A DNA stretch of 64,000 bases, taken from the IMG/VR virus record IMGVR_UViG_3300046002_004036, positions 34,084 through 98,083 of that record, one strand, 5' to 3'. Below are positions 5,936-63,495 of the stretch, piece by piece. Each line of letters begins with the position of its first letter. Position 1 is the first letter of the stretch. The notes beneath the pieces are model-generated. The model searched no databases. It was not told the origin of the DNA and worked only from the letters and a program-made list of their open reading frames with translations. A program made the position numbers and the translations under genes. Origin of the DNA: a virus.

Positions 5936-8900
5936 TTACTACATCCTCCAATATAACGGTTCCATCTTTAGTCTTACCCAAAGAAACTTTATATACATTT
6001 CCTTCTTCAATAGTCATATATGCTTTAGAAAATACTGTTGGAAATACAAGAATTGAATGAAGTTCTCTTGCTGCATCTGCTACAACAAGATTAGCCATTT
6101 TTTTACCAGCCTTGGTCATTCTTGGTTTGAATGAAACTACAAATTGTTCTTCACCTTTATACGGTAATTGTTTATAATTTAAAAACTTTACTAATGCATC
6201 TTTTGATTCTTTAATGCTATCAGCTGGTATAGCATTTACAATTCTGTTATCACTGACAAGAATTAAATATGTTCTACCAGTTTCAATTAATGTATTTTCA
6301 TCATCAAAAATTCCTACACTTCCAGTTTTATCAAGAAACTCAACTCTTGACCAACCCTTACCACGTTTAATTGATTTGATCATACCAAGCATAACAAAAG
6401 ATCCAGTCTCTTCATATTCTTCTGCTTCCTGAATATAAGCATAGTAATGTTGAGGCACCGTCATATTAAACTCAGGTAGGTTTAAGTATTCGTATAAATT
6501 TTCTTTGATTTCTTGATCATTGCGTTCACTGTCAGCAAACGTTGCTGCACCAATTACTCTTAGTGCTTGTAATGCACGAGAGTTTACTCCGTTACCTTTT
6601 GTGAATGTAAACTCTTCAAGTTCTTTGTATGAACTAAATGGTCGTGCTGCAATATATCTTTCTGCAATTTTATCAGAAATAAACTTGATAGAACTGAGTC
6701 CAAACCTAATGCCTTTACCTTCAATCTTAAAATCCATATCCGAATCGTTAATGTGAGGTAGCTTAACACTAATGCCCATTCTTTTTGCTTCAATAAGATA
6801 TTCAGTTCTTGCATCTTTATCCTTTTCATTCTTTAATAGTGAATACATAAACTCAAGTGGATAATGATATTTTAGCCAAGCTGTCCAGTATGACAGTGTT
6901 GAGTATGCTACTGCGTGTGACTTATTAAATGAATACCCTGCGTGGGCCTCAAAGTCATGCCATAAATCTAGTGCTTGATTTGGAGAAATGTATTGCGAAG
7001 CACCTTTAACAAACTGGTCTTTAAAAACATCAAATTCTTTAGCATCTTTTTTCTTACCAATAATCTTTCTAACTTTGTCTGCTTCAGACATTGACATACC
7101 ACCAAGTTGTACACATGCTTGCATAACTTGTTCCTGATAAAGAATACATCCATATGTTTCTTCTGTAAATGACTTTAAGATCTGATGCTTATAGTCTGGG
7201 TTTTGACGACCATGCTTGATAGCAATATAATCTTTGCCAATAGTATTCATAGCACCTGGGCGAACCAAAGCGTTTGATGCAGATAATTCTTCAAGATTCT
7301 TTACACGCATTTTAACTAAAAGGTTTGTGTATGGTGCTGCTTCACACTGAAACACACCTTTTGTATATCCATCAGAAAGCATAGTATATACATTAGCATC
7401 TTCCATATCAATCTTTAATGGATCAATTTTTGTTCCTTCACGCTCTTTAATAATATCAATACAATCTTTGAGTACCGTTAAAGTTTTAAGACCTAAAGCG
7501 TCAATCTTAATTAGGCCAATGTTTTCAGCCTCTCCCATATCTACAGCAACAACAGGAATGCGGTCATCGCTGCCAGCAACAGAACGTGTTTCCATTGGGG
7601 CATACCTAAATATAGGGTCCTTACTAGTAACAACACCTGCAGCGTGAATACCAGTGCCCTTAATTCTTCCACGTAATTGTTCACCATACACCTCTACTTC
7701 TGGATATTTATCTCTAAACCATTGTGCACTTTTTGACATGCAGTATTCATCCCAAGTATCAATTTGCTTATTTACTTTATTTGCATCAGCGAGTGGGATA
7801 TTTAAAACACGAGAAACATCTTTAACAATATTTTTATCTTTAAACTGCATGAATGTAGCAATAGATGCAACATGTCGGTATTGACGAACAAGATAATCTT
7901 TTACTTCATCACGGCGATTATCCTGAATATCTGAATCAATATCTGGAAAGTCATTACGGTCAGGGTTAATGAAGCGGAAGAACAAAAGACCGTGCTTAAT
8001 TGGATCAATGTCTGTAATACCTAAAGCATAACAAAGCAAAGATCCTGCTGCAGAACCACGACCTGGGCCAACCATAATGCCTTCTTTTTTTGCCCAGTTA
8101 AGCATGTTACGGACAACTAGAAAGTAAGGACCAAAATTCTTTTCACCAATAATTTTTAATTCTTCATCAAGACGATCAAGATATTCTTTATTATTTTCTA
8201 GACCACGTTGAGATAAACCTTCAATAGCAAAAGTTTTTAATTCCTGCATTGGTTTTTTATATTGAACTGGAAGTAAATCAAGTCCCGACTTAATATCATA
8301 TTCTTCAATTTTGTCTGCAATCTCTAAAGAACTTGTAAACATTTCTTCATCTGTATGACCTTGCTCTGCCATAGCAGATTTCATTTCTTCATAAGACAAA
8401 AGGTGAATGTCAAAAGTTCTAAATGACATTTTACGATCTTCGCCATATAAATAATCTAGACGCTCCATCATGTTGTTAATTTTCTTTGACTTGTCAAATG
8501 TTGATTCTTTTAATACTTTGCCATGCGTATTAAGCAGAAGCATCATTTCTTGAATTTCTTTTTGACTTGTATCTGCATGGTGACAATCGGGGGTAACTAC
8601 TACTTTTACATTAAATGCTTTGGCAAGTGCTACAAGTTCATCATTAATATTCTTTGGATTATGAGGCATCAATTCAATATAAAAGTCATCTTTAAAACGA
8701 TTCTTAAACCATTGAACCTTTTCTTTTGCAAATGCATACTCTTCATTCTCAATAGCTTTTGCAATAAGTCCACCCTGACATGCAGACAATACAATTAATC
8801 CATCTCCGTATTGATCTAATACTTCAAAATCAATTCTTGGTTTTCTATAAAAACCATCTGTCCATGCAATTTCATTTAGTTTATTAAGGTTTTCTAATCC

Positions 8901-9203
8901 TTGTTGATTCTTAGCAAGAAGGACTATATGGAAAAAATTAACATCAAGTGGACCTACCCTTTCGGACTTATCCCTTTTATCATGTCTATCTAATGCCAAA
9001 TAGCCTTCTATGCCAAGAATTGGCTTGATGCCCTTTGCTTTTGCAATTCGGTACAGTTCCCGATGCCCAGATAAGGTTCCGTGATCTGTGATAGCCAATG
9101 CTGGCATACCAAGTTCAACTGCTCGGTCAATATATTCTTCTGGAGTAGCAACACCATCCATTAAGGAATAGTGTGTATGGACATGCAAGCCTACATAATT
9201 CAC
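5928..9203 (-). CDS. dnaE: DNA polymerase III alpha subunit (DnaE-type replicative polymerase)
   Basis: A 1091-residue C-family polymerase. Order: PHP domain from the first residues (HVHTHYSLMDG, then AITDHG); palm and fingers with GPGRGSAAGSL near residue 376, the catalytic pair in FPDIDSD near residue 421, and a third Asp in IKIDALGLKTL near residue 566; helix-hairpin-helix region and an OB fold near residue 930 (GMIKSIKRGKGWSRVEF). It should copy the phage genome with the phage helicase and primase. The start is GTG at 9201-9203, needed to keep the PHP His motif, 8 bases after the SSB stop. Slightly shorter than bacterial DnaE (about 1160). Confidence 0.95.
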   Translation of the reverse strand: MNYVGLHVHTHYSLMDGVATPEEYIDRAVELGMPALAITDHGTLSGHRELYRIAKAKGIKPILGIEGYLALDRHDKRDKSERVGPLDVNFFHIVLLAKNQQGLENLNKLNEIAWTDGFYRKPRIDFEVLDQYGDGLIVLSACQGGLIAKAIENEEYAFAKEKVQWFKNRFKDDFYIELMPHNPKNINDELVALAKAFNVKVVVTPDCHHADTSQKEIQEMMLLLNTHGKVLKESTFDKSKKINNMMERLDYLYGEDRKMSFRTFDIHLLSYEEMKSAMAEQGHTDEEMFTSSLEIADKIEEYDIKSGLDLLPVQYKKPMQELKTFAIEGLSQRGLENNKEYLDRLDEELKIIGEKNFGPYFLVVRNMLNWAKKEGIMVGPGRGSAAGSLLCYALGITDIDPIKHGLLFFRFINPDRNDFPDIDSDIQDNRRDEVKDYLVRQYRHVASIATFMQFKDKNIVKDVSRVLNIPLADANKVNKQIDTWDEYCMSKSAQWFRDKYPEVEVYGEQLRGRIKGTGIHAAGVVTSKDPIFRYAPMETRSVAGSDDRIPVVAVDMGEAENIGLIKIDALGLKTLTVLKDCIDIIKEREGTKIDPLKIDMEDANVYTMLSDGYTKGVFQCEAAPYTNLLVKMRVKNLEELSASNALVRPGAMNTIGKDYIAIKHGRQNPDYKHQILKSFTEETYGCILYQEQVMQACVQLGGMSMSEADKVRKIIGKKKDAKEFDVFKDQFVKGASQYISPNQALDLWHDFEAHAGYSFNKSHAVAYSTLSYWTAWLKYHYPLEFMYSLLKNEKDKDARTEYLIEAKRMGISVKLPHINDSDMDFKIEGKGIRFGLSSIKFISDKIAERYIAARPFSSYKELEEFTFTKGNGVNSRALQALRVIGAATFADSERNDQEIKENLYEYLNLPEFNMTVPQHYYAYIQEAEEYEETGSFVMLGMIKSIKRGKGWSRVEFLDKTGSVGIFDDENTLIETGRTYLILVSDNRIVNAIPADSIKESKDALVKFLNYKQLPYKGEEQFVVSFKPRMTKAGKKMANLVVADAARELHSILVFPTVFSKAYMTIEEGNVYKVSLGKTKDGTVILEDVVNV

Positions 9204-9211
9204 CTAGTGTA

Positions 9212-9865
9212 TTACCAGTCCATGTTTGTGGATGTAGTACCTGGTGTATCAAAGCCTAGATAAAAGGCTTCTTGTTCAGCATAAGGAATTTTGTTGAGTG
9301 CCTTTTCTAGTGGAAATGGCTCTGTTGCTGCCCAATCAAATGGTTCCTTATCTGGACCACCTGGAATAAGTGTGTACGATGTTTCAGTTCCCTGACCATT
9401 GCGCTTTACTTTCCAAGTAAGATTTGAAATACTGCCTGTCTCCAGTGCGTATTCACGAATAGTGTTAAATGCAGATTGCTTGCTAACACCCATTGACCAA
9501 ATAGCCACATATGGTGCTTCAATACCGTCATCTACAAGTACGTTGCAATAAAAACGAAGACGTGCTCTCCAGCCTGCCTTCATGTCCTTGCGGTGCATCT
9601 CTTCTGCCCAGTCACGACCTTCTGTGTCCATTGTATCTACAGCCTTACGCTTATAGTCTTTTGGATTTGTGTGTTCTGAAACAACAAGTGCGAGACCACG
9701 AGCCTCATTGTAATTTGCTGAATCTTCATCAAGTTCTTCAATGAAGCGAATTTTTACTGCTTGTCCGTCAGCCAACTTAAGCCAACGAACTTTTGTTCCT
9801 GTACCTTCATACTTGGGCTTGTCTACCAATGCGTTGATATTTTTTAGTCCCTTTACAATAGCCAT
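9212..9865 (-). CDS. Single-stranded DNA-binding protein (gp32/SSB-like)
   Basis: A 217-residue protein placed immediately before DnaE. A core with KVRWLKLADGQAVKIRFIEEL and ARLRFYCNVLVDDG...YVAIWSMG looks like OB-fold strands rich in aromatics and basics, and the C terminus ends in a short Asn-Met-Asp-Trp tail. This layout is seen in phage SSBs annotated as gp32-like in replication operons. No zinc cysteines as in T4 gp32 are visible, so it is a distant relative at most. An extended -10 promoter lies about 35 bases upstream. Confidence 0.7.
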   Translation of the reverse strand: MAIVKGLKNINALVDKPKYEGTGTKVRWLKLADGQAVKIRFIEELDEDSANYNEARGLALVVSEHTNPKDYKRKAVDTMDTEGRDWAEEMHRKDMKAGWRARLRFYCNVLVDDGIEAPYVAIWSMGVSKQSAFNTIREYALETGSISNLTWKVKRNGQGTETSYTLIPGGPDKEPFDWAATEPFPLEKALNKIPYAEQEAFYLGFDTPGTTSTNMDW

Positions 9866-9896
9866 ATTATTTTTCTCCTATGTGTTTTGTTATGTT

Positions 9897-10823
9897 TTAT
9901 TTTAGCATAGAGATGATTGAATTGTCAAACTGGAATTCCAATTTTTTAATTGCATCATCATCCATATCGCCGATATCTTTATATTTTTTATCTAACTGTA
10001 TTACTGTAACAAGGTGACCTAGTTTTTCAACTAGTTTATCTTTCATGATAGAGCCAGCCTCATCATTATCTGCAACCAGTACAACATTATTGAAGTACTT
10101 TGCTAATAACTTAATCTGCGAAGCAGACACATTAGCACCCAGCGTTGCAACTGCTGGGAAACCTACTTGATCTAGTCTTATAGCATCAAATGATGATTCA
10201 ACTACATAGACTGTTGTTGATGTTTTAACCTTGTGCAAGTTAAACAAAATTTTACTTTTTGGTAGTCCAGGAGTATTTTTAAAATCTTTACCCTCAACTG
10301 TTCTAGCAACAAAACCAATACACATTCCATCAGGTGTTGCCATTGGAATAATTACTGAATCTTGCTTTTCAGAAAATCCTAGATTAAATTTTACCACAGA
10401 ATCTTTTGTAATGCTGCGACCTTCAAAATATCTCATTGCTCTTGGTGACTCAAGCGCTTGATTATTTAATCTTTTAATTAATACTTCGTCATACTGAACA
10501 AAATCAGCGGGTGCGTATAAAGCTTTATCAATTATTGATGAAAGGTTTGACTCTTGTTCTTTGCTTTTAATATATCTTGCTGCTTCAAAGTATGTTCTGT
10601 TTGACATAAACATAATTAACTCTGTTAAATTCTTAGTCACTTGACAGCCAAAACAAAAAAACAAACCAGACTCTTTGGATACTTCTCCTGCAGGTGTTCT
10701 GTTGTTATTGTGATAAGGACAGAATATAATAAAGTCAGATCCAAACTCTGCTTCAATATCAATTCCTGCCCCGTTAAGAACACGGCGGATTTGATCCTCT
10801 GTGTATATATCGTTACTTGCCAT
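9897..10823 (-). CDS. dnaG: DnaG-type DNA primase
   Basis: A 308-residue primase. The CHC2-type zinc ribbon is complete: FCPYH (Cys35, His38) and CFGC (Cys57, Cys60). The TOPRIM domain shows VVESSFDAIRLDQ (the Glu) and VLVADNDEAG (the Asp-x-Asp). It is shorter than bacterial DnaG (about 600) because the C-terminal helicase-interaction domain is reduced. I use the ATG at 10821-10823 (MASNDIYTEDQ) instead of a longer reading, since the extra 40 residues overlap the helicase gene and show no primase features. Lays RNA primers for the DnaE polymerase. Confidence 0.92.
   Translation of the reverse strand: MASNDIYTEDQIRRVLNGAGIDIEAEFGSDFIIFCPYHNNNRTPAGEVSKESGLFFCFGCQVTKNLTELIMFMSNRTYFEAARYIKSKEQESNLSSIIDKALYAPADFVQYDEVLIKRLNNQALESPRAMRYFEGRSITKDSVVKFNLGFSEKQDSVIIPMATPDGMCIGFVARTVEGKDFKNTPGLPKSKILFNLHKVKTSTTVYVVESSFDAIRLDQVGFPAVATLGANVSASQIKLLAKYFNNVVLVADNDEAGSIMKDKLVEKLGHLVTVIQLDKKYKDIGDMDDDAIKKLEFQFDNSIISMLK
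9899..9907 (-). promoter_or_regulatory. Extended -10 promoter TGCTAAAAT
   Basis: Minus-strand TGC-TAAAAT, 33 bases before the SSB ATG, with an AGGAGA ribosome site in between. It overlaps the last codons of the primase gene, so it could boost SSB and polymerase expression within the operon. Confidence 0.6.
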
Positions 10824-12036
10824 CTTCAAAATCCTTATAACGATAATAACCTTTGTCAAAGTCACACTGAACCAGAAAGTCTCCCATAAAACCATTACGG
10901 TTCTTTCTGAAAGCACATTCAATAATGTCGCTATTAGTTGCACGACCCATTGCTAAAACCCAGTCAGCATCATATGCAATCTGCCTAGACCATGCAGTCT
11001 GTGCAAGTGTTGGAACTGTAGATAGATCTTTTACATCGTCTGGTGTAGCAGATGAAATAGCAATAATAGGTACTTCTTCACCAATAGCCATTAGTTTAAG
11101 TTCTCGTGAAAGGTTTTTCATCTTTACCGTTTCATTATCAGCTTTTTGATTTGGATTCATTAGCTGGAGATAATCTACTACAACAAAATCAGGCTTGTAT
11201 TGATCTAGTTTTCCACGAATAATAGATGGTGTTACTTCACCACCTGAGTCATTTGAGATAATATGAAATGGTGGACGACCTTCAATTTTATCTGCATGCC
11301 ATTTTTTCATCATATCAAGTTCTACTTCACCGTTTGACAACTTGCGATGAGACCAAAGACCTTCACCCATAATTGTAAATGCACGATTACGTACTTCTGT
11401 TTCACTCATTTCAAGTGAGATTACAAGGGGTGTCTTACCCTGCTTCCAGGCCTGTACAGCAAAGTAGAGAGCCATCCAAGACTTTCCTATGCCTGGGTAT
11501 GCTAAGAAGACTCCTAGTTGACCTGGCATAATTCCAGAAGGTAGATAATTATCAAACCCTGGCAAACCTGTTTTGATTCCTCTATGACCTAGACGATGCT
11601 GCTCTTTAACTTGTTCAAAGTATGCAATTGCAGAATCAATATCTGTTGCATCAATATCTCTAATTGCTGCTGTATTCTTTTTTAACTGTGATGTTTTTGT
11701 AATTAATTCTTCAAGGGCTTGGCCTCCTTGCCCATTTTGTACTTCTCCTGCTGCAGATCGTAAAATATCTTTAAGGCTATCATTTAAATATTCTGATTGT
11801 AATTCTTCAAGGTGATGCTTTGTTGCACCTATACCCTGGACTGGTTGAAAGTCTCTAAACTTTTCAACTACCAAAGATGTTGGTGGAACAGTGCCATTAT
11901 TTTCTGCATACAATCTAATAAAATTCCACACGTCATTATGTGTGCGAAGCAATGTTTCTACATTTGCCTGTAGCAAAACGTGAAGTTGTTTATCTGCTAG
12001 GACTGCGGAGATTACTTTTGCTTCTGTATTATTCAC
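10813..12036 (-). CDS. dnaB: DnaB-type replicative helicase
   Basis: A 407-residue hexameric RecA-fold helicase. The N-terminal helical domain (about residues 1-110) precedes a linker (HRLGHRGIKTGLPGFDNYLPSG region) and the ATPase core with Walker A AYPGIGKSWMA, LVISLEMSE, Walker B FVVDYLQLM and the arginine-rich C-terminal region FRKNRNG. It overlaps the primase gene by 11 bases, and the next gene upstream overlaps its start by 8 bases. Confidence 0.93.
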   Translation of the reverse strand: MNNTEAKVISAVLADKQLHVLLQANVETLLRTHNDVWNFIRLYAENNGTVPPTSLVVEKFRDFQPVQGIGATKHHLEELQSEYLNDSLKDILRSAAGEVQNGQGGQALEELITKTSQLKKNTAAIRDIDATDIDSAIAYFEQVKEQHRLGHRGIKTGLPGFDNYLPSGIMPGQLGVFLAYPGIGKSWMALYFAVQAWKQGKTPLVISLEMSETEVRNRAFTIMGEGLWSHRKLSNGEVELDMMKKWHADKIEGRPPFHIISNDSGGEVTPSIIRGKLDQYKPDFVVVDYLQLMNPNQKADNETVKMKNLSRELKLMAIGEEVPIIAISSATPDDVKDLSTVPTLAQTAWSRQIAYDADWVLAMGRATNSDIIECAFRKNRNGFMGDFLVQCDFDKGYYRYKDFEDGK

Positions 12037-12596: not shown

Positions 12597-13139
12597 TTAG
12601 ATACTTTCACTCCATGTAGGAATAAATCTACCGTCTTCTGTCTTTGTATATGTAAGTATACCGTCTCCCATGCGCCGTGTCAATTCTTGTGTTGTTGGAG
12701 TCATGTTATTAGTTATTAATTTATCTTTTCTTGGTTGCCCAATATGAATACTTGCTAGTATTGCACGTATCTCTCTTACTTGTGATTCAGAATAGTATGC
12801 TCTGACTTGCCATCCTGTTTCCCCTCCAAATTTTGATCCTGTTGGTTTTGGTATAGTTCCTGCTTTTATTAGCCTTGGCATATATTTACGATGCCTATTG
12901 ACAAGTATTGCTGTTTCTGCTATGGTATATGCTCGTTCTCTGTTCCGCCTGAAATCTGTACGTAGACAAGTTTCAAGTCTATCTTTTGTAATGTTATAAA
13001 AAGAAACCATTCCAGTAGATCTTGAGCTATGGTGAATTCTAACTAAATCATTATTTAAAAACCAAACTTTTTGATTTCCTTTTATTACAGATTCGTTATT
13101 GTATTCATCGCTCTGTATTTTTCGTTTAGCAGTAGCCAT
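12597..13139 (-). CDS. Helix-turn-helix protein (MerR/excisionase-like segment)
   Basis: A 180-residue basic protein. Residues about 88-120 read YTIAETAILVNRHRKYMPRLIKAGTIPKPTG, the winged-HTH pattern of MerR-type or excisionase DNA-binding domains, followed by a wing (WQVRAYYSESQVREIR). It could be a phage transcription regulator acting on the operators at 61-63 kb, but no evidence links them. It overlaps the next gene by 55 bases (13085-13139). Confidence 0.6.
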   Translation of the reverse strand: MATAKRKIQSDEYNNESVIKGNQKVWFLNNDLVRIHHSSRSTGMVSFYNITKDRLETCLRTDFRRNRERAYTIAETAILVNRHRKYMPRLIKAGTIPKPTGSKFGGETGWQVRAYYSESQVREIRAILASIHIGQPRKDKLITNNMTPTTQELTRRMGDGILTYTKTEDGRFIPTWSESI

Positions 13140-19809: not shown

Positions 19810-22800
19810 TTATTGTATCCTTTTAAGTCCCAGCCTTGTTTCAAGGCCTTGATTAAATGAGTGAGATACAGAATGAACAAAATATTTTTGCTGGCTTATA
19901 CCATTTAGAGAATAAGTAAGAGTAATTATGTCTCCAACTTGGATTAAAGGATTACCAAATATACTAAGGTTGGCATCTTTTGAAAAACCTTCAATTCCCA
20001 TTTGTACCAGCTTAAGCATTCTTTGTGCTGCTTGCTTTGACTGTATCCATTCTGAGTCTAGTTGTGCTACTTCTGAGCTATTAGATTGATCAATCAATAC
20101 CTCCAAAATTTCAGGGTCAGAAGGAGCAACAATTTCATGTGTCCAGAGATTTAAGTTAATTGTAAATTGATCAAGGTCATCTGCCTCTTTATGTAAAAAT
20201 ACCATGTTTGATGAATTATTAGCAATTACCATCTTTGCTCTAAATCCTGTGTTAATTGGGGTTGAGTAAGAAAGTGAATATTCATCAATTAACTTTTTTT
20301 GATAATTAGTCTGATCTTCTTTTTCATTTCCTGGAAAATAATACCACATATATTCAACTGGTAACACATCTACTGAAACTGCTGCAGGAGTTGTATATTG
20401 AACATCGTAATAGTTAATTCCAGCTACTTCAGGGCTTGTCTGCATTAAATAAGTAATTGAATTTGAGTATAGTGGTTGACCTTGGACTAAACCATTTAAA
20501 AATTCTCTATCTTGGTAAAAATAACTAACGCTTCTTTCTGTTAATGCTTTTTCTGTTGCATGAATTTCTCTAAGGGCGGCAGGAGAAACTCTTGTTCCCT
20601 GATCAAAATATTCAGGTTCTGGGTGTAGATCTGGAACCATTGTAGGATACATTGATGCATGAAAGCCAAACTTAGTTCCTGTTTGAATGTCATCATCAAA
20701 GTATGGTTTTTGTCTCATACCAGTTAAACCATTTACTTCAGTTGATTTCCAGCCAGAACCTCCAGGATTTGTTGTTACATCATAATCATCTGTTTTAGAT
20801 TCTTGCCATCCAACTATTTCTACGTTGTTTAAAAATATTGATAAAATTATTTTGTTGTTTCCTACGGTACCGCTTTCTCCATCTGAACCATCTGAAGAAG
20901 TTATTGCAACTTTTAAATTAAATGGGTTATCTGTTACATAAGAGTATTCATATTCTTTACCAACCAAAGTTTTTTTAATTATCTTTGAAAAATTATTTAC
21001 GATACTGTTACACTCTCCAGTAACCTCTGACCAAAACATTACACCAGTTGTTACATTTTTTGCTAATAATACATACTTGTATTTTGGTGGATCGTAAAGA
21101 TCTCCTGGTGATTTTGGATTTTCTTGGTTATACCTTACAAGCTCAATAAAATAAGCTTCTGCAGAAGATGTTGTACTTGCCATGTTAAAGAATAGACCAG
21201 CAGAAGCCACAGACTGATCTGGCATATCAAACTTTACAGAATAGGTGTGATAACCTATATCTGTTTCAGTTGTTGGATATATGAGAAGTTTATTATTTAT
21301 ACCAATATCATATATGGTTTCACTAACGTTTATTTTTGAAATGCTTGGCAAAGTACTTTCATTATCATTGTCATCTATTATTGATGTATATCCTGAAGAT
21401 GTTGCTAATGCAAGGGTTGAATCATTAAATCGTTTTTCAGAAAGACTCTTGCTGGCTAAAGTAGTAATTCTTGTATGTGCTGCTGGCACTGTTCCATATA
21501 GTCCACGCTGAACATTTGTAATATTTCCAGTAGGAGTTACTATAACTTCATAGTCAAACGGAACTGTTGCCTCTCCGCCAGAGACATAAGTGCCTGCTGC
21601 TGGATCAATAATTGAAAAAGAAGTATTTGTTCTGCTAGAAATAATTCCATTTATGTTATATGTTTTAGGATTAACTGCAGTGACAATCACTTTTTGTCCT
21701 ACCTTAAAAGTATTTGCTGCCGTATAAACTACTGCGCTTCCGCTTCTAGCAACATTTGTAACAGTTGCATAAGAAGTTTTTAGCCCAACATTATTTTGTT
21801 TAATAAAATTGTTTATTTCCGATTGAAGTTCCGTATCATTTTTTATTGAAACTGTAATTGGACTTTCTCCAAACTTTCCAATCTCATATTCTTTATAAAG
21901 AAATGAAACAATTTCATTTTCAATAAAAGCATAACCACTTGCATCACGATTAAAAGTATGAAAAATGTCTTGAAGATCATTAACATTTATGTTAAACATA
22001 TTTGAATTTTTTTCCATGTTGCTATTTATATAGTTAAACCCAACAGAGTCTATGCTTTGTTGCTGCCATACAACATCATTAGATGTTGCATAAACAAAAG
22101 ATGGAGAATTTTTAACCATTGGGTTTGTAACATTTTGTAAAGAAGGAGATTGTTTAACTTTAGGAATTTGATATCTTAAAGAAATTTTTCCTGGCTTTGC
22201 TTTATTAGAGATAGAAAATCCACCTTGTTTAATGTTAAAGTCTGAGACTGTTAGATTAGATGTGCTTGAAGATAAAATATTATGCAAACTTAAAAATTTC
22301 ATAATTCCATATTCATCAATATATGCTCCAATTTGATAAGCAACAAATATCTTATTAAGTGTGTCTACAATAGTTGAGTCTTTTGAGTTGCAGTAAAAGT
22401 ATGCTAGATCCATTGGATTAGCTTTATTGTTACAAACGTTGTAAAGAGAGTCATAGTCGTAATCTGTAAAACCAGCCAAATCAAGAATATTAGTGATTAC
22501 ATCAAATACGTTTTTTAAGTTAACTACATAATCAGGAACTGGGGTTGATTGGAGATATCTTGAGATATCAAAAGACTGAATAGAAACTGTATCTATATCT
22601 GATTCATCCCAAGAGTCTGAATAAAATACCCCTGCTGGAACATAGGCTGTTGTAGATGTTACGGTATTTGTAGATAAATCAGAGTACTCAAAAAGATTAA
22701 AATTAACATAAAACTTAATATTTTTTCTAAGAATACTTGAAAGCAATGTAGAGGCACTATCGCTTTGACTAGAAAAAACATTAACTATTTCATTATTATA

Positions 22801-43154: not shown

Positions 43155-44903
43155 TTACCAGGCACTCATTATATTCATAAGAGAAATATCTTGTTCATAT
43201 CCACTTGCATCAAGTGATGCATGTATTGGTGATGTAATTTTTGTTGCAGATGCTACTCCAAGTGTAGGAGCAGTCATTGTTGGGCTAGTTAAAGTTTTAT
43301 TTGTAAGAGTCTGTGTATTTCCAGCAGTTGTAATTATATTATCTGCAGACAAAGTTCCAACATATGCGTTACTGCCTCCAGCTGGAACAATTCTAACGTT
43401 TGTGTCTCCACTTACTAAGAAATCACCAGTTCCGCTAATTGTGGATGTTCCTGAAAGTGTTGCACCTGATAATGTTAGTCCCGCAATTGTTGTGACGGTA
43501 GCTCCTGAAGCAATTGATGTTGATCCAAGTGTTGGTGCTGAATATCCTGATACTGTACCCCAAGAAGTTGAAGTTCCATCTGTAGTAAGGTACTTACCTG
43601 AGTTGCTAGTTTGTGAAGCAACTAAATCAGTTCCGTTATATTTTAATGTCTTACCTGAAGCAAGATTAATATGCTCTGATGAAGTCCAAGCATCTGTAGC
43701 GTCTACCCAGTTAAAAGTTTTATCAGTTGCCCCCTTGAGTGTGAGGCCACCACCGTCGGCAGTTGTATCAGTTGGGGTATCAACATCACCAAGGATAATA
43801 TTCTTATCATCCACTGCAAGAGTAGTAGAGTTAATTGTTGTGGTTGTGCCATTAATTGTTAGGTCCCCTGAAAGTGTAAGGGATGTACCAGTTGCAGCAC
43901 CAATGTTTGGTGTTACAAGTGTTGGGGTATCAGCAAAAACAAGTGTTCCACTACCATTGTGATCAGAGATTACTGATTGAAGTTCTGATGAAGAAGTTGC
44001 TGCAAAAGCATCCAACTTATTGTTTGTAAGAGCAACAGTACCTGTAGCATCTGGGAAAGTTACTGTACGGTCACCAGTTGGATCTGCAACTGTAAGTGTT
44101 GTCTCAAATTCATTTGCTGTTGTACCTTCAAGAACGATTGAACCATCTGAAAGCGTAAGTCCTGAAACTACTGGACTTGTCAAAGTTTTGTTTGTTAAAG
44201 TTTCTGTTTTGCTTTCAGTTGATTTGGCATCTAATTGAGTTTGTATTGCTGAAGTAACACCATTAAGGTATCCGATTTCTGTATCTGTAACATCTGTAAC
44301 ACGAGCCTGAATTGTTGTAGTATCTACATCAAATTTACTTGTTCCAGCATTCCAGCTAATTCCATTACCTGCAAGTGTAGACTGATCTACTTCTGCTCCA
44401 CCAATTTCTGAATCTACATATTCTTGTGTTGCTACTGTTCCTGTTTCATCAGGAAATGTTATAGTACGATCTGCTGTGGGTTCTCCTGCTGAAAGGGTAA
44501 GTTCGTGAGCATCTGCTGTTGAACCTTCCATTACGATTGTTGAAGTAAATATACCAATGTCTGTAATGTCTGAAAGGTTTCCTGTTGTAATAACAGTTCC
44601 TGTAACATTTGGAATAGTAATTGTACGATCTGCTGTAGGATCTGTTATTTGAAGTGTTGTTTCAAATCCATCTGCCGTTGCACCCTCAAATGTAATACTT
44701 GAGCCAAAGGCAGGGTTTACTGTTGAATTAGCATCAATAAAGTAATCAAGGGTTAGCCAGTGATTTGTGCCATCACCAATTTTAAACTTGTTTGTATCGG
44801 TCTCATATCCAATTTCGCCAGGTTCAAGAATGGGGCCATTTCCTGAATTTGTTGAAATCCATTGAGCCGCAGTACCTCTGCGCTGTTGCATTCTTGTTGC
44901 CAT
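43155..44903 (-). CDS. Tail fibre with repeated TADRTITFPDxTGT units
   Basis: A 582-residue fibre. The N terminus (MATRMQQRRGTAAQWISTNS...EPGEIGYETDTNKFKIGDGTNHWLTLDYF) is the trimeric attachment domain seen in many fibres. Then at least three copies of a unit such as VMEGSTADAHELTL...EPTADRTITFPDETGTV (residues 60-275), followed by collar and beta-helix regions. C terminus EQDISLMNIMSAW. Likely host-contacting fibre whose sugar-binding partners are the lectin-like proteins next to it. Confidence 0.75.
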   Translation of the reverse strand: MATRMQQRRGTAAQWISTNSGNGPILEPGEIGYETDTNKFKIGDGTNHWLTLDYFIDANSTVNPAFGSSITFEGATADGFETTLQITDPTADRTITIPNVTGTVITTGNLSDITDIGIFTSTIVMEGSTADAHELTLSAGEPTADRTITFPDETGTVATQEYVDSEIGGAEVDQSTLAGNGISWNAGTSKFDVDTTTIQARVTDVTDTEIGYLNGVTSAIQTQLDAKSTESKTETLTNKTLTSPVVSGLTLSDGSIVLEGTTANEFETTLTVADPTGDRTVTFPDATGTVALTNNKLDAFAATSSSELQSVISDHNGSGTLVFADTPTLVTPNIGAATGTSLTLSGDLTINGTTTTINSTTLAVDDKNIILGDVDTPTDTTADGGGLTLKGATDKTFNWVDATDAWTSSEHINLASGKTLKYNGTDLVASQTSNSGKYLTTDGTSTSWGTVSGYSAPTLGSTSIASGATVTTIAGLTLSGATLSGTSTISGTGDFLVSGDTNVRIVPAGGSNAYVGTLSADNIITTAGNTQTLTNKTLTSPTMTAPTLGVASATKITSPIHASLDASGYEQDISLMNIMSAW

Positions 44904-47628: not shown

Positions 47629-48942
47629 TTAATCAGTCTTTTCTGTCTTAGGTATTGCCAAATGATTTCCATTGCCATCTATACATGATATTGTGTATCC
47701 AAAATCTTCTAAGTCTTTAAAAATGTCTGAAATCTTGGTCGCATCAAATATTTTTAATGTTTCAACAGGAGGTTTTTGTGAGTTGTGCTTAAACATAATA
47801 GATGGCTTAAACTTTTCAATAGTTTCTTTTGCACCTTTAATTACTAGGTGTTCTTTACCTTCTAGGTCAATTTTGATATAATCGCAGGACTCTAGGTTTA
47901 GACTATCTATGGCTATTTCTTGTTCCGATTCCCCAAAAGAATTACCATAAAGAGTGATATCCGATAAATTGTTTGCTAACACGTTTTTACTAAGCAATTC
48001 AAATAATTTTTCCTGGGGTTCAAAACAGTGAATTTTTACATTTGAGTTAATACTCTTATAAACAACGGTGTGCGAGCCAGCGTGGGCTCCAATATCTAAA
48101 ATAGTTGAAGAATTTTTTATAATGTCTGATAGGTGGTTTTCAATTAGATCTTGTTCATATATTTTATTAATAGATAAAAACTTAGTAAAGTCTAGATCGT
48201 TTTTATGGTAAGAGATGTATCCACAATCTGTTGTTTTTTCTTGTACCTCTGAGTTTTTAGATTTCCAAAACTCTGTTATTTGATTATAAGATCTTGTGTG
48301 GCTTTGTAAAATGTGGTCTTGATTTATTGATGAGTTTAATTTTAGGTTAGTAACAAATAATGGCGTAGAGTATGTTTTTGCTGTATAATAAATAAGAAAG
48401 TCTGCGACAGATTTTTTATCTAAATAAAAATTAAACTTATCATCTGGATAGTGTTTCTTAATTAATTTTTCAGCATACTCTCTTTTGATTAAATATGCAC
48501 CTGCAGACCAATCATTAATTTCTTTTAAATGAGTATTTGTGTTTATATTTATGTTATGTATTATACACATTTGTAATATATCGTATTTTTTATTTATATT
48601 TTTTAAAAACTCAGACCAATTAAAGTCCCAATATTGAACAGTTTCAAAACTTACATCATCTTCCATAATTATTGCATAGTCAGAATCAGAAGTTTCAAGC
48701 CAAGTTTTTATTGCTGTCAGGTGGGACATGGCTGCACCGAGTTCTGGCTTTGTTAATGTTAATGCATCAAACTTAATTACATCTGATTCCATGTTATGGG
48801 TGTTACCATCAATTGCATCAATAAATGTAAAATCTTTTATGCCGTGACTTTTAAATTGTTTTAGCATAAAATCTTTACGATCTTTACGATCTTTAAGGTT
48901 GATTACGTATATTGGTCCAAAGGACTCTAATTTATTATTCAA
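47629..48942 (-). CDS. GT25 glycosyltransferase fused to FkbM methyltransferase
   Basis: A 437-residue two-domain enzyme. Residues 1-220 are a glycosyltransferase family 25 domain (IYVINLKDRKDRKDFMLKQF, then AAMSHLTAIKTWLETSDSDYAIIMEDDVSF with the EDD metal site). Residues about 270-437 are an FkbM-type SAM methyltransferase (TILDIGAHAGSHTVVYKSINSNVKIHCFEPQEKLFELLSKN, DYIKIDLEGKEHLVIKG). It may add and cap a sugar on virion or cell-surface glycans. The fusion of the two activities in one chain is unusual. Confidence 0.85.
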   Translation of the reverse strand: MNNKLESFGPIYVINLKDRKDRKDFMLKQFKSHGIKDFTFIDAIDGNTHNMESDVIKFDALTLTKPELGAAMSHLTAIKTWLETSDSDYAIIMEDDVSFETVQYWDFNWSEFLKNINKKYDILQMCIIHNININTNTHLKEINDWSAGAYLIKREYAEKLIKKHYPDDKFNFYLDKKSVADFLIYYTAKTYSTPLFVTNLKLNSSINQDHILQSHTRSYNQITEFWKSKNSEVQEKTTDCGYISYHKNDLDFTKFLSINKIYEQDLIENHLSDIIKNSSTILDIGAHAGSHTVVYKSINSNVKIHCFEPQEKLFELLSKNVLANNLSDITLYGNSFGESEQEIAIDSLNLESCDYIKIDLEGKEHLVIKGAKETIEKFKPSIMFKHNSQKPPVETLKIFDATKISDIFKDLEDFGYTISCIDGNGNHLAIPKTEKTD

Positions 48943-60958: not shown

Positions 60959-60987
60959 ATACTACCATAGATACCCTGAAAAGTCAA
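60959..60987 (-). promoter_or_regulatory. Promoter TTGACT-17-TAGTAT for small minus-strand operon
   Basis: Minus-strand TTGACT (60982-60987), 17-base spacer, TAGTAT (60959-60964). Drives the genes from 60846. The GGCGTGTCG block sits directly upstream of its -35 box. The transcript leader 60847-60958 contains a GAGCCCTACT/AGTAGGCAAATAA hairpin related to the plus-strand leaders. Confidence 0.75.
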
Positions 60988-60989
60988 GG

Positions 60990-60999
60990 CGACACGCCG
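60990..60999. repeat. GGCGTGTCG block copy 1
   Basis: On the minus strand CGGCGTGTCG directly upstream of the TTGACT box. Related copies: 61200-61209, 61908-61917, 63039-63048 and 63086-63095. Confidence 0.65.
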
Positions 61000-61008
61000 T
61001 TGGCGTGG

Positions 61009-61024
61009 TGTGATTCTAGTCACA
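61009..61024. promoter_or_regulatory. Operator palindrome 1 (TGTGA-N6-TCACA)
   Basis: TGTGATTCTAGTCACA, a perfect TGTGA-N6-TCACA palindrome. It overlaps the stop codon of the 31-residue gene at 61016, upstream of the small minus-strand operon promoter. Confidence 0.7.
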
Positions 61025-61111
61025 TACCTTCTTGGATAGTAGGGATATTGCTAGGTCTAGGCTAGCCTTGCGCTGAGCCTCTACCATACTCTTGTATTCT
61101 TCAAGTGTCAT
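61016..61111 (-). CDS. 31 aa peptide gene
   Basis: MTLEEYKSMVEAQRKASLDLAISLLSKKVCD. Amphipathic helix-like, with an AGAAAGG site and a strong promoter (61162-61190). It is the first gene of the minus transcript from the origin region, and the small operon follows only after a hairpin and a second promoter. Function unknown. Confidence 0.55.
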   Translation of the reverse strand: MTLEEYKSMVEAQRKASLDLAISLLSKKVCD

Positions 61112-61128
61112 TGTATGACCTTTCTTTA

Positions 61129-61145
61129 TTGATAACCTTTATCAA
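61129..61145 (-). promoter_or_regulatory. Hairpin TTGATAA/TTATCAA in leader of 31 aa gene
   Basis: Perfect 7-bp inverted repeat with a 3-base loop, between the promoter and the ribosome site. Possible 5' mRNA structure. Confidence 0.5.
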
Positions 61146-61161
61146 TTTTTCTTATACTGCA

Positions 61162-61190
61162 AGTATAGCATAGAGATTGCTAAAAGTCAA
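61162..61190 (-). promoter_or_regulatory. Promoter TTGACT-17-TATACT, minus strand from origin region
   Basis: Minus-strand TTGACT at 61185-61190, spacer of 17, TATACT at 61162-61167, followed by TGCAGTATAAG. The same TATACTT-n3-GTATAA extension follows the plus-strand promoters at 61359 and 61943. Confidence 0.8.
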
Positions 61191-61199
61191 GTCCTGAGA

Positions 61200-61209
61200 C
61201 GGCGTGTCG
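61200..61209. repeat. GGCGTGTCG block copy 2
   Basis: CGGCGTGTCG, 10 bases from the minus promoter and adjacent to operator 2. Confidence 0.6.
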
Positions 61210-61211
61210 TG

Positions 61212-61227
61212 TGTGATATACACCACA
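61212..61227. promoter_or_regulatory. Operator palindrome 2 (TGTGA-N6-CCACA)
   Basis: TGTGATATACACCACA, one half-site mismatch from TGTGA-N6-TCACA, with TA in the middle as in GlxR sites. Next to GCCCGGC (61230-61236). Confidence 0.6.
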
Positions 61228-61238
61228 TGGCCCGGCAG

Positions 61239-61288
61239 TTATCCACATGATACACATCACACTAACAATTGAGCGTGAGTTATCCACA
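61239..61288. other. Two DnaA boxes, putative replication origin
   Basis: TTATCCACA occurs exactly at 61239-61247 and 61280-61288, in the same orientation, 41 bases apart, each followed by the same ATGA. This equals the consensus DnaA box. The stretch is non-coding (61112-61506 contains no protein gene), divergent transcripts start on both sides, and an AT-rich promoter region flanks it. Origin function is inferred. Confidence 0.7.
61246..61261. promoter_or_regulatory. Operator palindrome 3, overlapping DnaA box 1
   Basis: CATGATACACATCACA, half-site variant of TGTGA-N6-TCACA. Its first bases are the end of the DnaA box, so one protein could block the other. Confidence 0.55.
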
Positions 61289-61302
61289 TGATGTACCTCA
61301 CA
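61287..61302. promoter_or_regulatory. Operator palindrome 4, overlapping DnaA box 2
   Basis: CATGATGTACCTCACA, arranged relative to DnaA box 2 as operator 3 is to box 1 (both boxes are followed by ATGA). Confidence 0.55.
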
Positions 61303-61358
61303 TTGTAAAATGTCCATATTGACCTACTTACTGGGTAGTAGATGTCAGACCCCCCTGT

Positions 61359-61376
61359 TATACTTACAGTATAAGA
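61359..61376 (+). promoter_or_regulatory. -10 box TATACT with TATACTTACAGTATAAG extension
   Basis: TATACT at 61359-61364 begins a TATACTTACAGTATAAG sequence, the same as at 61162 (minus) and 61943. No convincing -35 at 17 bases, so it may depend on an activator at operator 4. Confidence 0.55.
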
Positions 61377-61401
61377 AAAAGTAAATAAAGAAAAATCTTA
61401 G

Positions 61402-61464
61402 TTGAGCCTATTGAGCCTAGCAAATAATCCGAAAGGTGAGCCTAGCAAATAAATAGCAAATAAT
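61402..61464 (+). repeat. Leader repeats GAGCCTAGCAAATAA, set 1
   Basis: TTGAGCCTA, then TTGAGCCTAGCAAATAA (61411-61427), GTGAGCCTAGCAAATAA (61436-61452) and TAGCAAATAAT (61454-61464). A possible leader frame TTG...TAA at 61411-61452 reads LSLANNPKGEPSK. It is in the 5' leader of the transcript reaching 61507. Confidence 0.6.
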
Positions 61465-61506
61465 ACTAAGCAAGGAAAAAGAATATCTCTTGAAAGGAGA
61501 ATATAA

Positions 61507-61716
61507 ATGTCAATAGAAATTTTTGAAATGAATGAAAATGGTGCTGGTTGGGTATCATTAGAAAATGCTACATCTTCAACCAAAATTGATTTAGAGTGGG
61601 CAATTGCAAACAATGCAGATGTTCAAATGCAATGTTTCAAATGTCATACACCAATCCCAAAAGGTAATGTATGCATAAATCACAAGAATGTAAAAGGAGG
61701 AATTTACTTTGACTAA
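61507..61716 (+). CDS. Small zinc-finger-like protein, 69 aa
   Basis: MSIEIFEMNENGAGWVSLENATSSTKIDLEWAIANNADVQ, then CFKCHTPIPKGNVCINHKN, a possible zinc site (Cys, Cys, Cys, His). ATG follows GAAAGGAGAATATAA. First gene of the plus-strand early operon. Confidence 0.65.
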   Translation: MSIEIFEMNENGAGWVSLENATSSTKIDLEWAIANNADVQMQCFKCHTPIPKGNVCINHKNVKGGIYFD

Positions 61717-61855
61717 AAAAAATGTAATAATTAGTTTTGTTACTGAAGCAGATACAGATCTGCAAGCAGTATTCAATCTAAATAAAATTTTGAATAAACT
61801 TTCTGATAATGAATTAGAAAAGTTCAATGCGTTTGAAGTTTTAGATGTAGAGTAA
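61709..61855 (+). CDS. Small protein of unknown function, 48 aa
   Basis: Begins with TTG in an AAAGGAGG context at 8-base spacing, overlapping the preceding stop. MTKKNVIISFVTEADTDLQAVFNLNKILNKLSDNELEKFNAFEVLDVE. Helical, charged; function unknown. The TTG start is chosen because no ATG fits. Confidence 0.55.
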   Translation: MTKKNVIISFVTEADTDLQAVFNLNKILNKLSDNELEKFNAFEVLDVE

Positions 61856-61871
61856 TCTCTACACTAAGACC

Positions 61872-61878
61872 GCCCGGC
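61872..61878. repeat. GCCCGGC block copy 2
   Basis: GCCCGGC, with copies at 61230-61236 and 63026-63032, each near an operator palindrome in the same order. Confidence 0.5.
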
Positions 61879-61882
61879 GCGG

Positions 61883-61898
61883 CGTGATGCATATCACA
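61883..61898. promoter_or_regulatory. Operator palindrome 5 (CGTGA-N6-TCACA)
   Basis: CGTGATGCATATCACA, one mismatch from consensus; followed after 9 bases by CGGCGTGTCG and the promoter at 61920. Confidence 0.65.
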
Positions 61899-61907
61899 TA
61901 AAATATA

Positions 61908-61917
61908 CGGCGTGTCG
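61908..61917. repeat. GGCGTGTCG block copy 3
   Basis: CGGCGTGTCG immediately upstream of the TTGACT -35 box, as for the minus-strand promoter at 60982. Confidence 0.65.
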
Positions 61918-61919
61918 TC

Positions 61920-61948
61920 TTGACTTTTTGATATTTCTATGTTATACT
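61920..61948 (+). promoter_or_regulatory. Promoter TTGACT-17-TATACT
   Basis: TTGACT 61920-61925, 17-base spacer, TATACT 61943-61948, then CTCGTATAAAG. The clearest sigma70-type promoter in the right arm. Drives the leader at 61992. Confidence 0.82.
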
Positions 61949-61991
61949 TCTCGTATAAAGAAAATTGAATAGTGACAAAAAGAAGCAGGTC

Positions 61992-62039
61992 ATGAGCCTA
62001 GCGAATAAGCCTCTACCAGAGGATGAGCCTAGCAAATAA
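61992..62039 (+). CDS. Leader peptide frame with GAGCCTAGCAAATAA repeats, set 2
   Basis: ATG at 61992 opens a 15-residue frame (MSLANKPLPEDEPSK) with repeats GAGCCTAGCGAATAA and GAGCCTAGCAAATAA at each end. Another ATG at 62023 reads MSLANK. It resembles set 1 at 61411 (LSLANNPKGEPSK). It may be a real leader peptide or an RNA motif that reads as one. Confidence 0.5.
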   Translation: MSLANKPLPEDEPSK

Positions 62040-62054
62040 GTGACCAATATCACA
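62039..62054. promoter_or_regulatory. Operator palindrome 6 (AGTGA-N6-TCACA)
   Basis: AGTGACCAATATCACA, one mismatch, starting at the end of the leader-peptide frame. Confidence 0.6.
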
Positions 62055-62072
62055 AAGAAAGTTTCTCAACAC

Positions 62073-62087
62073 ACCCCTAAAAGGGGT
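62073..62087 (+). terminator. Hairpin ACCCCT/AGGGGT before 62109 promoter
   Basis: Six-base stem with a three-base loop, ending the short leader transcript. No T tract follows, so it may be an attenuator. Confidence 0.45.
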
Positions 62088-62108
62088 CAATATGTCAGTG
62101 GTCTATGT

Positions 62109-62126
62109 TAGACTTACAGTATAAAC
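62109..62126 (+). promoter_or_regulatory. -10 box TAGACT with TAGACTTACAGTATAAA extension
   Basis: TAGACT at 62109-62114 followed by TACAGTATAAAC, sharing the extension of the other early promoters. No good -35; GTCAAT at 62086-62091 is the only candidate. Confidence 0.5.
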
Positions 62127-62145
62127 AAAAAGAAAGGAGTCACTA

Positions 62146-62343
62146 ATGACTCACTATAAAGAAATCCGAAAGGATATAGCCCTAGAGTATGGGCTAGCGA
62201 GTGCAGGATATGCACCTCGTAAATATGCATTGACAGTTCGCCAATGTCAAATACTCAATAATAAATACGGCTATGAAAAAGCCTCAATGATAGTAAAACG
62301 CTATCGCTCAATGTTTCTAACTAAGAAAGTTGGTACTAACTAA
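62146..62343 (+). CDS. Small basic protein, 65 aa
   Basis: MTHYKEIRKDIALEYGLASAGYAPRKYALTVRQCQILNNKYGYEKASMIVKRYRSMFLTKK. The repeat-like helical pattern and basic composition suggest nucleic-acid binding. An AAAGGAG site precedes it; first gene of the operon. Confidence 0.65.
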   Translation: MTHYKEIRKDIALEYGLASAGYAPRKYALTVRQCQILNNKYGYEKASMIVKRYRSMFLTKKVGTN

Positions 62344-62519
62344 TGGTACAAGTAAAACTAACCTCATTCAATGGTAATGTGAAACGCTTAGAGTTTCTCA
62401 CTTCATACCTTGCAAATAATTACATAAAGGCGCTACCTAATGCGCTACCTAAAACAGTAACGCTTCAAGTAGAATGCGACGCTCTAACACTTTCAGGTTT
62501 CGTGAGAGGAACAAAATAA
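62343..62519 (+). CDS. Small protein of unknown function, 58 aa
   Basis: MVQVKLTSFNGNVKRLEFLTSYLANNYIKALPNALPKTV then LQVECDALTLSGFVRGTK. Start overlaps the preceding stop (TAATG), and its own stop overlaps the next start. Beta-rich; unknown role. Confidence 0.65.
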   Translation: MVQVKLTSFNGNVKRLEFLTSYLANNYIKALPNALPKTVTLQVECDALTLSGFVRGTK

Positions 62520-62680
62520 TGAAAACTAACTTTGAACTAATTGCAGAGATTCAATCTCTAGCAGAAAAGCACTATGGAAAAAACGATAGTGCATTCCTAT
62601 GGGGTTGCTCATCTCCACTTCTAACAATTCATAACCTTGAACTAATTCTCTCAATTCTAAAAGATAAGGAAACTAACTAA
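62519..62680 (+). CDS. Small protein of unknown function, 53 aa
   Basis: MKTNFELIAEIQSLAEKHYGKNDSAFLWGCSSPLLTIHNLELILSILKDKETN. The coupled ATG at 62519 is preferred over a start 15 codons upstream. Mostly helical; function unknown. Confidence 0.65.
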   Translation: MKTNFELIAEIQSLAEKHYGKNDSAFLWGCSSPLLTIHNLELILSILKDKETN

Positions 62681-62922
62681 TGAATAAACAACAACAAATT
62701 GACGAGGCTATTGCTTCCGCTGAATCACTATTCAACACTCCTGAATCCATAGAGTTTGCAAAGCGCATGGAATTTGAGGACTATCTCAATGACTCATATG
62801 GACGCATTGAAATATGTGGACAGATATTCTTCCCTTCCGATGTTCTGCGAGAATGTGACCCTGTTGCGTTTCGTGTTTATCAAAGCGATTTTGAATCAAT
62901 GAATGAGGAAAACAATGAATAA
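62680..62922 (+). CDS. Small acidic protein, 80 aa
   Basis: MNKQQQIDEAIASAESLFNTPESIEFAKRMEFEDYLNDS, then GRIEICGQIFFPSDVLRECDPVAFRVYQSDFES. Resembles short phage proteins of unknown function found in small-gene operons. Start overlaps preceding stop. Confidence 0.65.
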   Translation: MNKQQQIDEAIASAESLFNTPESIEFAKRMEFEDYLNDSYGRIEICGQIFFPSDVLRECDPVAFRVYQSDFESMNEENNE

Positions 62923-63016
62923 TTTTTATCAAACATTTTTTGTAAGTGGTAATGCACTTTTTTGGTTCTCAATGATTTGTTTTATTTCTGGATTTTATTT
63001 ACACACTAAAGAATGA
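62915..63016 (+). CDS. Small single-span membrane protein, 33 aa
   Basis: MNNFYQTFFVSGNALFWFSMICFISGFYLHTKE: almost entirely one hydrophobic segment. It overlaps the upstream gene by 8 bases, which supports translation. Last gene before the next regulatory cassette. Confidence 0.55.
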   Translation: MNNFYQTFFVSGNALFWFSMICFISGFYLHTKE

Positions 63017-63025
63017 TCACGTGGG

Positions 63026-63042
63026 GCCCGGCGCTCTCGGGC
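63026..63042 (+). terminator. GC-rich hairpin GCCCG/CGGGC
   Basis: Five-base perfect stem with a 7-base loop, 10 bases after the membrane protein stop. It contains the GCCCGGC block and runs into the GGCGTGTCG block. No T tract follows; possibly a terminator of the operon or a protein-binding element. Confidence 0.45.
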
Positions 63043-63048
63043 GTGTCG
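63039..63048. repeat. GGCGTGTCG block copy 4
   Basis: GGGCGTGTCG, 3 bases before operator palindrome 7. Confidence 0.55.
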
Positions 63049-63050
63049 CA

Positions 63051-63066
63051 TGTGATAAGAAACACA
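63051..63066. promoter_or_regulatory. Operator palindrome 7 (TGTGA-N6-ACACA)
   Basis: TGTGATAAGAAACACA, one mismatch; followed by TAAATAATT, as operator 5 is followed by TAAAATATA. Confidence 0.55.
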
Positions 63067-63085
63067 TAAATAATTTCCCCAATTA

Positions 63086-63126
63086 CGGCGTGTTGATTTG
63101 ATTTCCTGGGATTTATGTGGTAAGAT
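63086..63126 (+). promoter_or_regulatory. GGCGTGTTG block and promoter TTGATT-17-TAAGAT
   Basis: CGGCGTGTTG at 63086-63095, then TTGATT 63098-63103, spacer of 17, TAAGAT 63121-63126, and ATCTTATACAATT downstream. Copy 5 of the block. Produces a short leader before operator 8. Confidence 0.7.
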
Positions 63127-63159
63127 TATCTTATACAATTGAATAAATAGTAAAAATGA

Positions 63160-63175
63160 TGTGACTAACCTCACA
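63160..63175. promoter_or_regulatory. Operator palindrome 8 (TGTGA-N6-TCACA)
   Basis: TGTGACTAACCTCACA, a perfect consensus match, between two promoters. Confidence 0.7.
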
Positions 63176-63186
63176 CTCGTTGAGCG

Positions 63187-63205
63187 TCTCAAAGGTTGAG
63201 ATTTT
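63187..63205 (+). terminator. Attenuator-like hairpin TCTCAA/TTGAGA + T tract
   Basis: Six-base stem with AGG loop followed by TTTT. It would stop the short transcript from the 63121 promoter, ahead of the next promoter at 63217. Confidence 0.6.
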
Positions 63206-63216
63206 ATCGCTAGGAT

Positions 63217-63245
63217 TTGATTTCTAGCCCTAAAAATGCTAAAAT
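63217..63245 (+). promoter_or_regulatory. Promoter TTGATT-17-TAAAAT
   Basis: TTGATT 63217-63222, 17-base spacer, TAAAAT 63240-63245, then AGTAATATAAACAAAAAG. Drives the genes from 63280. Confidence 0.72.
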
Positions 63246-63279: not shown

Positions 63280-63495
63280 ATGTCAGCCAATGTCTACAAT
63301 GTCCAATCCCTACTAATAGGAAAACAATATATCTCTCGCACCTTGCGTGGAGAAATTGTATCAGCAGAGGTACACCCTAAAGCCGTATGGTATGAGGGTT
63401 GCGAAACTTATCTCGTAGAGGTTGCACCTAATAGCGGTTACAATAATTTCGGTAGCCGTACTTATCGCACCGTTGCAGTAAAGACAGGTCAATAA
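63280..63495 (+). CDS. Small protein of unknown function, 71 aa
   Basis: MSANVYNVQSLLIGKQYISRTLRGEIVSAEVHPKAVWYEGCETYLVEVAPNSGYNNFGSRTYRTVAVKTGQ. Beta-rich, resembles an SH3/OB-like small domain. Ribosome site AAGAAGG precedes the ATG. Confidence 0.65.
   Translation: MSANVYNVQSLLIGKQYISRTLRGEIVSAEVHPKAVWYEGCETYLVEVAPNSGYNNFGSRTYRTVAVKTGQ

Follow-up and report, generated by a model that had tools for sequence, protein, structure and literature searches.

The window analysed here, a 64,000-nt stretch comprising positions 34,084 to 98,083 (the last 64 kb) of the 98,083-bp virus record IMGVR_UViG_3300046002_004036, carries between 60990 and 63245 a cluster of TGTGA-N6-TCACA palindromes arranged around promoters of small phage genes. 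The sequence of these sites, their conservation in related viruses and their helical phasing to the promoters indicate that a Crp/GlxR protein of the host, together with host sigma-A, probably activates this phage operon cluster in a class I manner.

Clustering and conservation of the palindromes

Each of the eight N6 palindromes reported by an earlier sequence-only reading of the region was found where it had been placed; two were perfect, four had one mismatch and two had two mismatches (Table 1). Counts in the region at up to zero, one and two mismatches were 2, 6 and 9, compared to 0.005, 0.11 and 1.3 in dinucleotide shuffles; in 2,000 such shuffles the observed values were never attained. 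The ninth site with at most two mismatches, which was absent from the earlier list, is located at 62773 inside a coding frame, while every site with zero or one mismatch was intergenic. Over the full window, sites with up to two mismatches were fewer than expected (24 versus 42 by chance), and the signal thus consists of clustering and site quality rather than of total number. The only further perfect palindrome in the record lies at record positions 81-96, upstream of another rightward gene.

Related viruses were recovered through the 71-amino-acid protein encoded at 63280-63495, which yielded 54 viral contigs (557 kb); an alignment query indicated that at least 549 viral contigs encode this protein. 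No close named phage relative was found, either by DNA or by the 71-amino-acid protein. The 54 relatives contained 241 perfect TGTGA-Nx-TCACA palindromes at x = 6 and none or one at every other x from 2 to 12, in addition to 180 N6 sites with one mismatch, and 388 of 421 N6 sites were intergenic. All 19 larger records had three to eight perfect N6 copies each, whereas a reversed control pattern gave none. Conservation of the palindromes and of their N6 spacing in related phages, on which the sequence-only reading had made its proposal depend, was thereby strongly borne out. The LacI-type palindrome TGTGA-N4-TCACA was rejected, with one perfect copy versus 241 for N6 and with many of its one-mismatch matches overlapping N6 sites.

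In 188 non-redundant sites, the positions that had not been used for selection favoured T5, T7-A8 and A10, resulting in the consensus TGTGATnTAnATCACA. At the sequence level this is the CRP/GlxR consensus, including the unselected positions; the published GlxR consensus is TGTGA-N6-TCACA (PMC7999487). Alignment of the region upstream of the 71-amino-acid gene from 12 phages, the window included, revealed a footprint in which the operator of promoter C2 was a perfect palindrome in 11 of 12 sequences and the C1 operator was conserved, yet more degenerate, while ACGGCGTGT, directly before the -35 element, was invariant.

Helical phasing and promoter elements

Measured from the operator end to the -35 element, six of the eight operators in the window lie at 21, 31 or 41 bp, that is, on one helix face. 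By their sequence, the core promoters of the region are sigma-A-like, and some are TG-extended. The leftward promoters D and A- and the fixed operator-promoter distances are additions to the earlier account. The same arrangement was observed in the relatives, where the operator-to--10 distance peaked at 28, 38, 48 and 58 bp (Rayleigh p ~1e-8 for 61 non-redundant promoters). These 61 promoters beside operators compare to 8.6 with shuffled flanks, and 72% versus 32% were in phase. A scan of IMG/VR without selection by protein gave 93 operator-promoter matches that piled up at 21, 31 and 41 bp, with p ~2e-10 for all 93; for the 54 non-redundant matches, some of which are due to chance in unrelated contigs, p was 0.02. 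Reckoned from the -10 element, operator centres are placed at about -54.5, -64.5, -74.5 and -84.5; the sites thus lie upstream of -35 with whole helical turns between positions, as in class I promoters. Class I CRP sites of Escherichia coli are centred at -61.5, -71.5 and -82.5.

Two further blocks beside the operators, GGCGTGT(C/T)G and GCCCGGC, had been described from the sequence, and only the former was sustained as a general element, being real and highly enriched in relatives. GCCCGGC was not enriched (24 found versus 31 in shuffles) and belongs, as one of its two arms, to an inverted repeat (GCCCG...CGGGC) present in some relatives only. In 1.12 Mb, GGCGTGTCG occurred in 422 copies compared to 2 in shuffles, 86% of them within 90 bp of an operator and 151 followed by a -35-like tetramer at a distance of exactly 2 bp. 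The GGCGTGTCG block is thus a second, strongly conserved element beside the -35. Other enriched elements were ATGTCCG boxes (421 versus 79 in shuffles), a TCTCA-N-TGAGA repeat (104 versus 7) and ATGTCAG immediately following the -35 (719 versus 146), with GTCAG at one offset in 22 of 27 copies.

The GTGTC contained in GGCGTGTCG resembles the WhiA motif GACAC (PMC3781837), although conservation extends beyond this motif and GTGTC by itself was hardly enriched overall; WhiA or WhiB may be regarded as a weak lead for this block. A WhiB-like gene at record positions 21271-21444 (- strand, outside the window) had matches in all family records tested and is a candidate partner of the block.

Table 1. 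Operators, promoters and associated features in and around the palindrome cluster (window coordinates).
Feature	Position	Strand	Details
Promoter D, leftward	60959..60987	-	-35 TTGACT (60987-60982), 17 bp, -10 TAGTAT (60964-60959)
GGCGTGTCG of promoter D	60998-60990	-	2 bp before -35
Operator, CRP/GlxR-type, perfect (TGTGACTAGAATCACA on - strand)	61009..61024	-	Serves promoter D, 21 bp upstream of -35
Promoter A-, leftward	61162..61190	-	-35 TTGACT, 17 bp, TG-extended -10 TATACT (61162-61167)
GGCGTGTCG element, inverted copy	61201-61209		Near promoter A-
Operator, 1 mismatch	61212..61227	-	Serves promoter A-, 21 bp upstream of -35
DnaA-box-like TTATCCACA	61239-61247		Overlaps operator 61246
Weak operator, 2 mismatches	61246..61261	+	Without own promoter in phase
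Weak operator, 2 mismatches	61287..61302	+	Upstream of promoter A+; 33 bp to nominal -35, 2 bp off common phase
Promoter A+, rightward	-10 61359-61364; spacer element 61342-61348	+	-10 TATACT; spacer element ATGTCAG
Operator, 1 mismatch	61883..61898	+	Serves promoter B, 21 bp upstream of -35
Promoter B, rightward	61909..61948	+	GGCGTGTCG (61909-61917), -35 TTGACT (61920-61925), 17 bp, -10 TATACT (61943-61948)
Operator, 1 mismatch	62039..62054	+	Serves promoter B2, 31 bp upstream of -35 region
Promoter B2, rightward	62086..62114	+	Weak -35 GTCAAT, spacer element ATGTCAG (62092-62098), -10 TAGACT (62109-62114)
Gene	62146-62343		Downstream of promoter B2
GGCGTGTCG	63040-63048		Immediately upstream of operator 63051
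Operator, 1 mismatch	63051..63066	+	Serves promoter C1, 31 bp upstream of -35
Promoter C1, rightward	63087..63126	+	GGCGTGTTG (63087-63095), -35 TTGATT (63098-63103), 17 bp, -10 TAAGAT (63121-63126)
Operator, perfect	63160..63175	+	Serves promoter C2, 41 bp upstream of -35
TCTCA-N5-TGAGA inverted repeat	63187-63201		Between C2 operator and -35
Promoter C2, rightward	63217..63245	+	-35 TTGATT (63217-63222), 17 bp, TG-extended -10 TAAAAT (63240-63245)
71-amino-acid protein, function not assigned	63280..63495	+	Downstream of C1/C2; anchor for finding relatives

Elsewhere in the window, a Major tropism determinant N-terminal domain is present in the product of 43155-44903, and the single chain encoded at 47629-48942 combines glycosyltransferase family 25 and FkbM methyltransferase domains. 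Outside it, record positions 3490-3600 contain four clustered TGTGGATAA DnaA-box-like sequences within an AT-rich stretch, a possible replication origin.

Host, mechanism and alternative binders

WhiB matches were detected in 16 of 16 phage records, 15 of them over the cut-off, and WhiB-like proteins are restricted to Actinobacteria and their phages (PMC6282962; PMC10202952), which points to an actinobacterial host for this phage family. The phage polymerase (DnaE) was nearest to those of Streptomyces phages, with 53% identity to DnaE of phage BillNye. A scan of genome contigs gave one full match (52% identity), in a Flavobacteriia metagenome-assembled genome, and a second match of 16 residues; given the presence of WhiB in the phages, the former was attributed to binning contamination and rejected as host evidence. 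Searches for regulators covered 19 phage records for HTH_Crp_2 and 16 records, of up to 116 kb, for cNMP_binding, sigma-70 region 2 and class III cyclase; none of the four was detected, so that neither a sigma factor nor a source of cyclic AMP (cAMP) encoded by the phage was retained as a candidate.

The sequence-only reading had offered two options, a borrowed host CRP/GlxR-type regulator or a repressor of the phage's own. The former is favoured by the full motif match, the phasing to sigma-A-type promoters and the lack of a detectable CRP-type regulator (HTH_Crp_2) in the phage records. According to the proposed mechanism, the palindromes would be sites for a CRP/FNR-family activator from the actinobacterial host (a Crp/GlxR orthologue, probably cAMP-bound), whose dimer, placed whole turns upstream of -35, would be on the RNA polymerase face and would recruit the host sigma-A holoenzyme by class I contact with the C-terminal domain of the alpha subunit. 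Such contact is plausible in actinobacteria, since, at the promoters controlled by E. coli CRP, that protein can be replaced by GlxR or by Mycobacterium tuberculosis CRP (PMC5449483). Each short operon of small phage genes would be served by one or two promoters of this kind, and a second factor would probably act at the GGCGTGTCG block abutting the -35, the location occupied by class II activators or by WhiB-type proteins bound to sigma-4. The outcome would be a phage regulon with output dependent on the cAMP or carbon state of the host. Both host CRP as the binder and activation over repression are what we infer from these patterns, and early timing of the genes was assumed from their position, the host-type promoters and the lack of a sigma factor in the phage records searched.

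Several observations weigh against the proposed class I activation by host Crp/GlxR. The preferred operator position is about 3 bp further upstream than the E. coli class I sites at -61.5 and -71.5, and only six of the eight operators in the window keep the phase, 61246 and 61287 being weak and out of phase. In addition, a phage CRP of very diverged sequence could escape profile searches, and both the identity of the host protein and the early timing are predictions from sequence.

Binding by a phage-encoded protein with CRP-like recognition and unrelated or highly diverged sequence, acting as activator or repressor, appears unlikely. Phages commonly have regulators of their own, and most small genes near the sites have no assigned function; against this, the domain searches detected neither a CRP-type helix-turn-helix nor a cyclic-nucleotide domain, and the full consensus, central positions included, equals that of CRP. 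The conserved helix-turn-helix-like protein encoded at 12597-13139 (phrog_9440), which had been named as a possible binder, is an improbable one because its homologue in Streptomyces phage BillNye (gp183, 30% identity), which likewise adjoins helicase and primase genes, is kept in a genome without the operator cluster. It is more improbable still that host CRP binds these sites as a repressor or silencer of phage genes, as at pir, dam and recE of phage T1, whose promoters are repressed by cAMP-CRP (PMC6737242). The -35 and -10 elements of some promoters are already near consensus, as repression would allow, whereas a number of promoters have weak -35 hexamers, and the operators are located upstream of the core promoter, not over it, at the whole-turn spacings of activation geometry.

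That the palindromes are structural sites for partition, replication or packaging that merely share the intergenic regions is very improbable: both weak operators, 61246 and 61287, overlap a DnaA-box-like TTATCCACA, as this explanation would have it, whereas the helical phasing, the enrichment of promoters beside sites and the conservation of tandem operator-promoter pairs contradict it. A chance or low-complexity artefact can be practically dismissed, given that the sites are gap-specific, clustered and conserved, even though the count with up to two mismatches over the 64 kb is not above chance.

Comparison with known systems and implications

The operator consensus TGTGA-N6-TCACA is common to the regulons of GlxR in Corynebacterium glutamicum and of mycobacterial CRP, and GlxR is an activator at ldhA (PMC7999487). 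In contrast to these regulons, the present sites are found on phage genomes, clustered, repeated before phage operons and at fixed helical spacing, and their binding by a host protein is predicted from the motif. As in E. coli class I promoters of the lac type, the CRP site is upstream of -35 and activation would be expected on one helix face; unlike lac, each region has several operators, and additional conserved elements occupy the spacer and the stretch from operator to -35. The operator spacing of lac is about 3 bp shorter than in this phage family.

The action of host CRP on phage promoters is already known in principle: in phage T1, host cAMP-CRP represses pir, dam and recE, with a bearing on lysogeny (PMC6737242). 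In the T1 Pir circuit, as proposed here, phage promoters are regulated by host CRP, whereas the present arrangement is suggestive of activation and extends over an entire operon cluster. Searches of the open-licence literature gave no family-wide set of phage promoters whose CRP-type operators are placed upstream in helical phase, and what appears to be new here is the family-wide, helically phased, multi-element promoter design. Among the Stanwilliamsviridae, BillNye has a related replication module, comprising the DnaE and helix-turn-helix proteins compared above, and differs in having one perfect and three one-mismatch sites and a higher GC content (53%).

In Vibrio phage ICP1 (NC_015157.1, ~4.3-10.6 kb), seven of eight perfect TGTGA-N6-TCACA palindromes lie within 5.1-10.1 kb of the 126-kb genome, and 13 kb at the left end contained 14 sites that have one mismatch or none, compared to none or one at other gaps. 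These sites stand among small leftward genes, and both the phage and its host, V. cholerae, are unrelated to the present family. ICP1 may be a lytic phage that makes use of CRP independently; nothing relevant on CRP sites in ICP1 promoters was found in the open-licence literature. An unrelated viral contig (IMGVR_UViG_3300032282_005530; GC 0.40), which shares no proteins with the window phage, had 11 sites of zero or one mismatch in ~4 kb (7763-11961).

Tentatively, and with somewhat less than even confidence, the family may share a combinatorial code in which a host CRP operator at whole-turn distances is combined with GGCGTGTCG at the -35, TGTCCG boxes or TCTCA-TGAGA between them, TGTCAG in the spacer and a TG-extended -10, making the first infection genes conditional on host cAMP or carbon status and on a second factor, possibly the phage WhiB-type protein. 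For the proposed coupling of virus gene expression to the host's nutritional state, the operators provide a simple sequence marker, and the same scan also picked out the well-studied ICP1. With its hundreds of natural promoters, the family could help to reveal how the position of CRP affects actinobacterial RNA polymerase. The start of the gene programme in this virus family is probably tied to the carbon or energy state of the host and, if true, this would provide a direct, testable link from actinobacterial nutritional state to the onset of viral gene expression, for a family represented in at least 549 public contigs.

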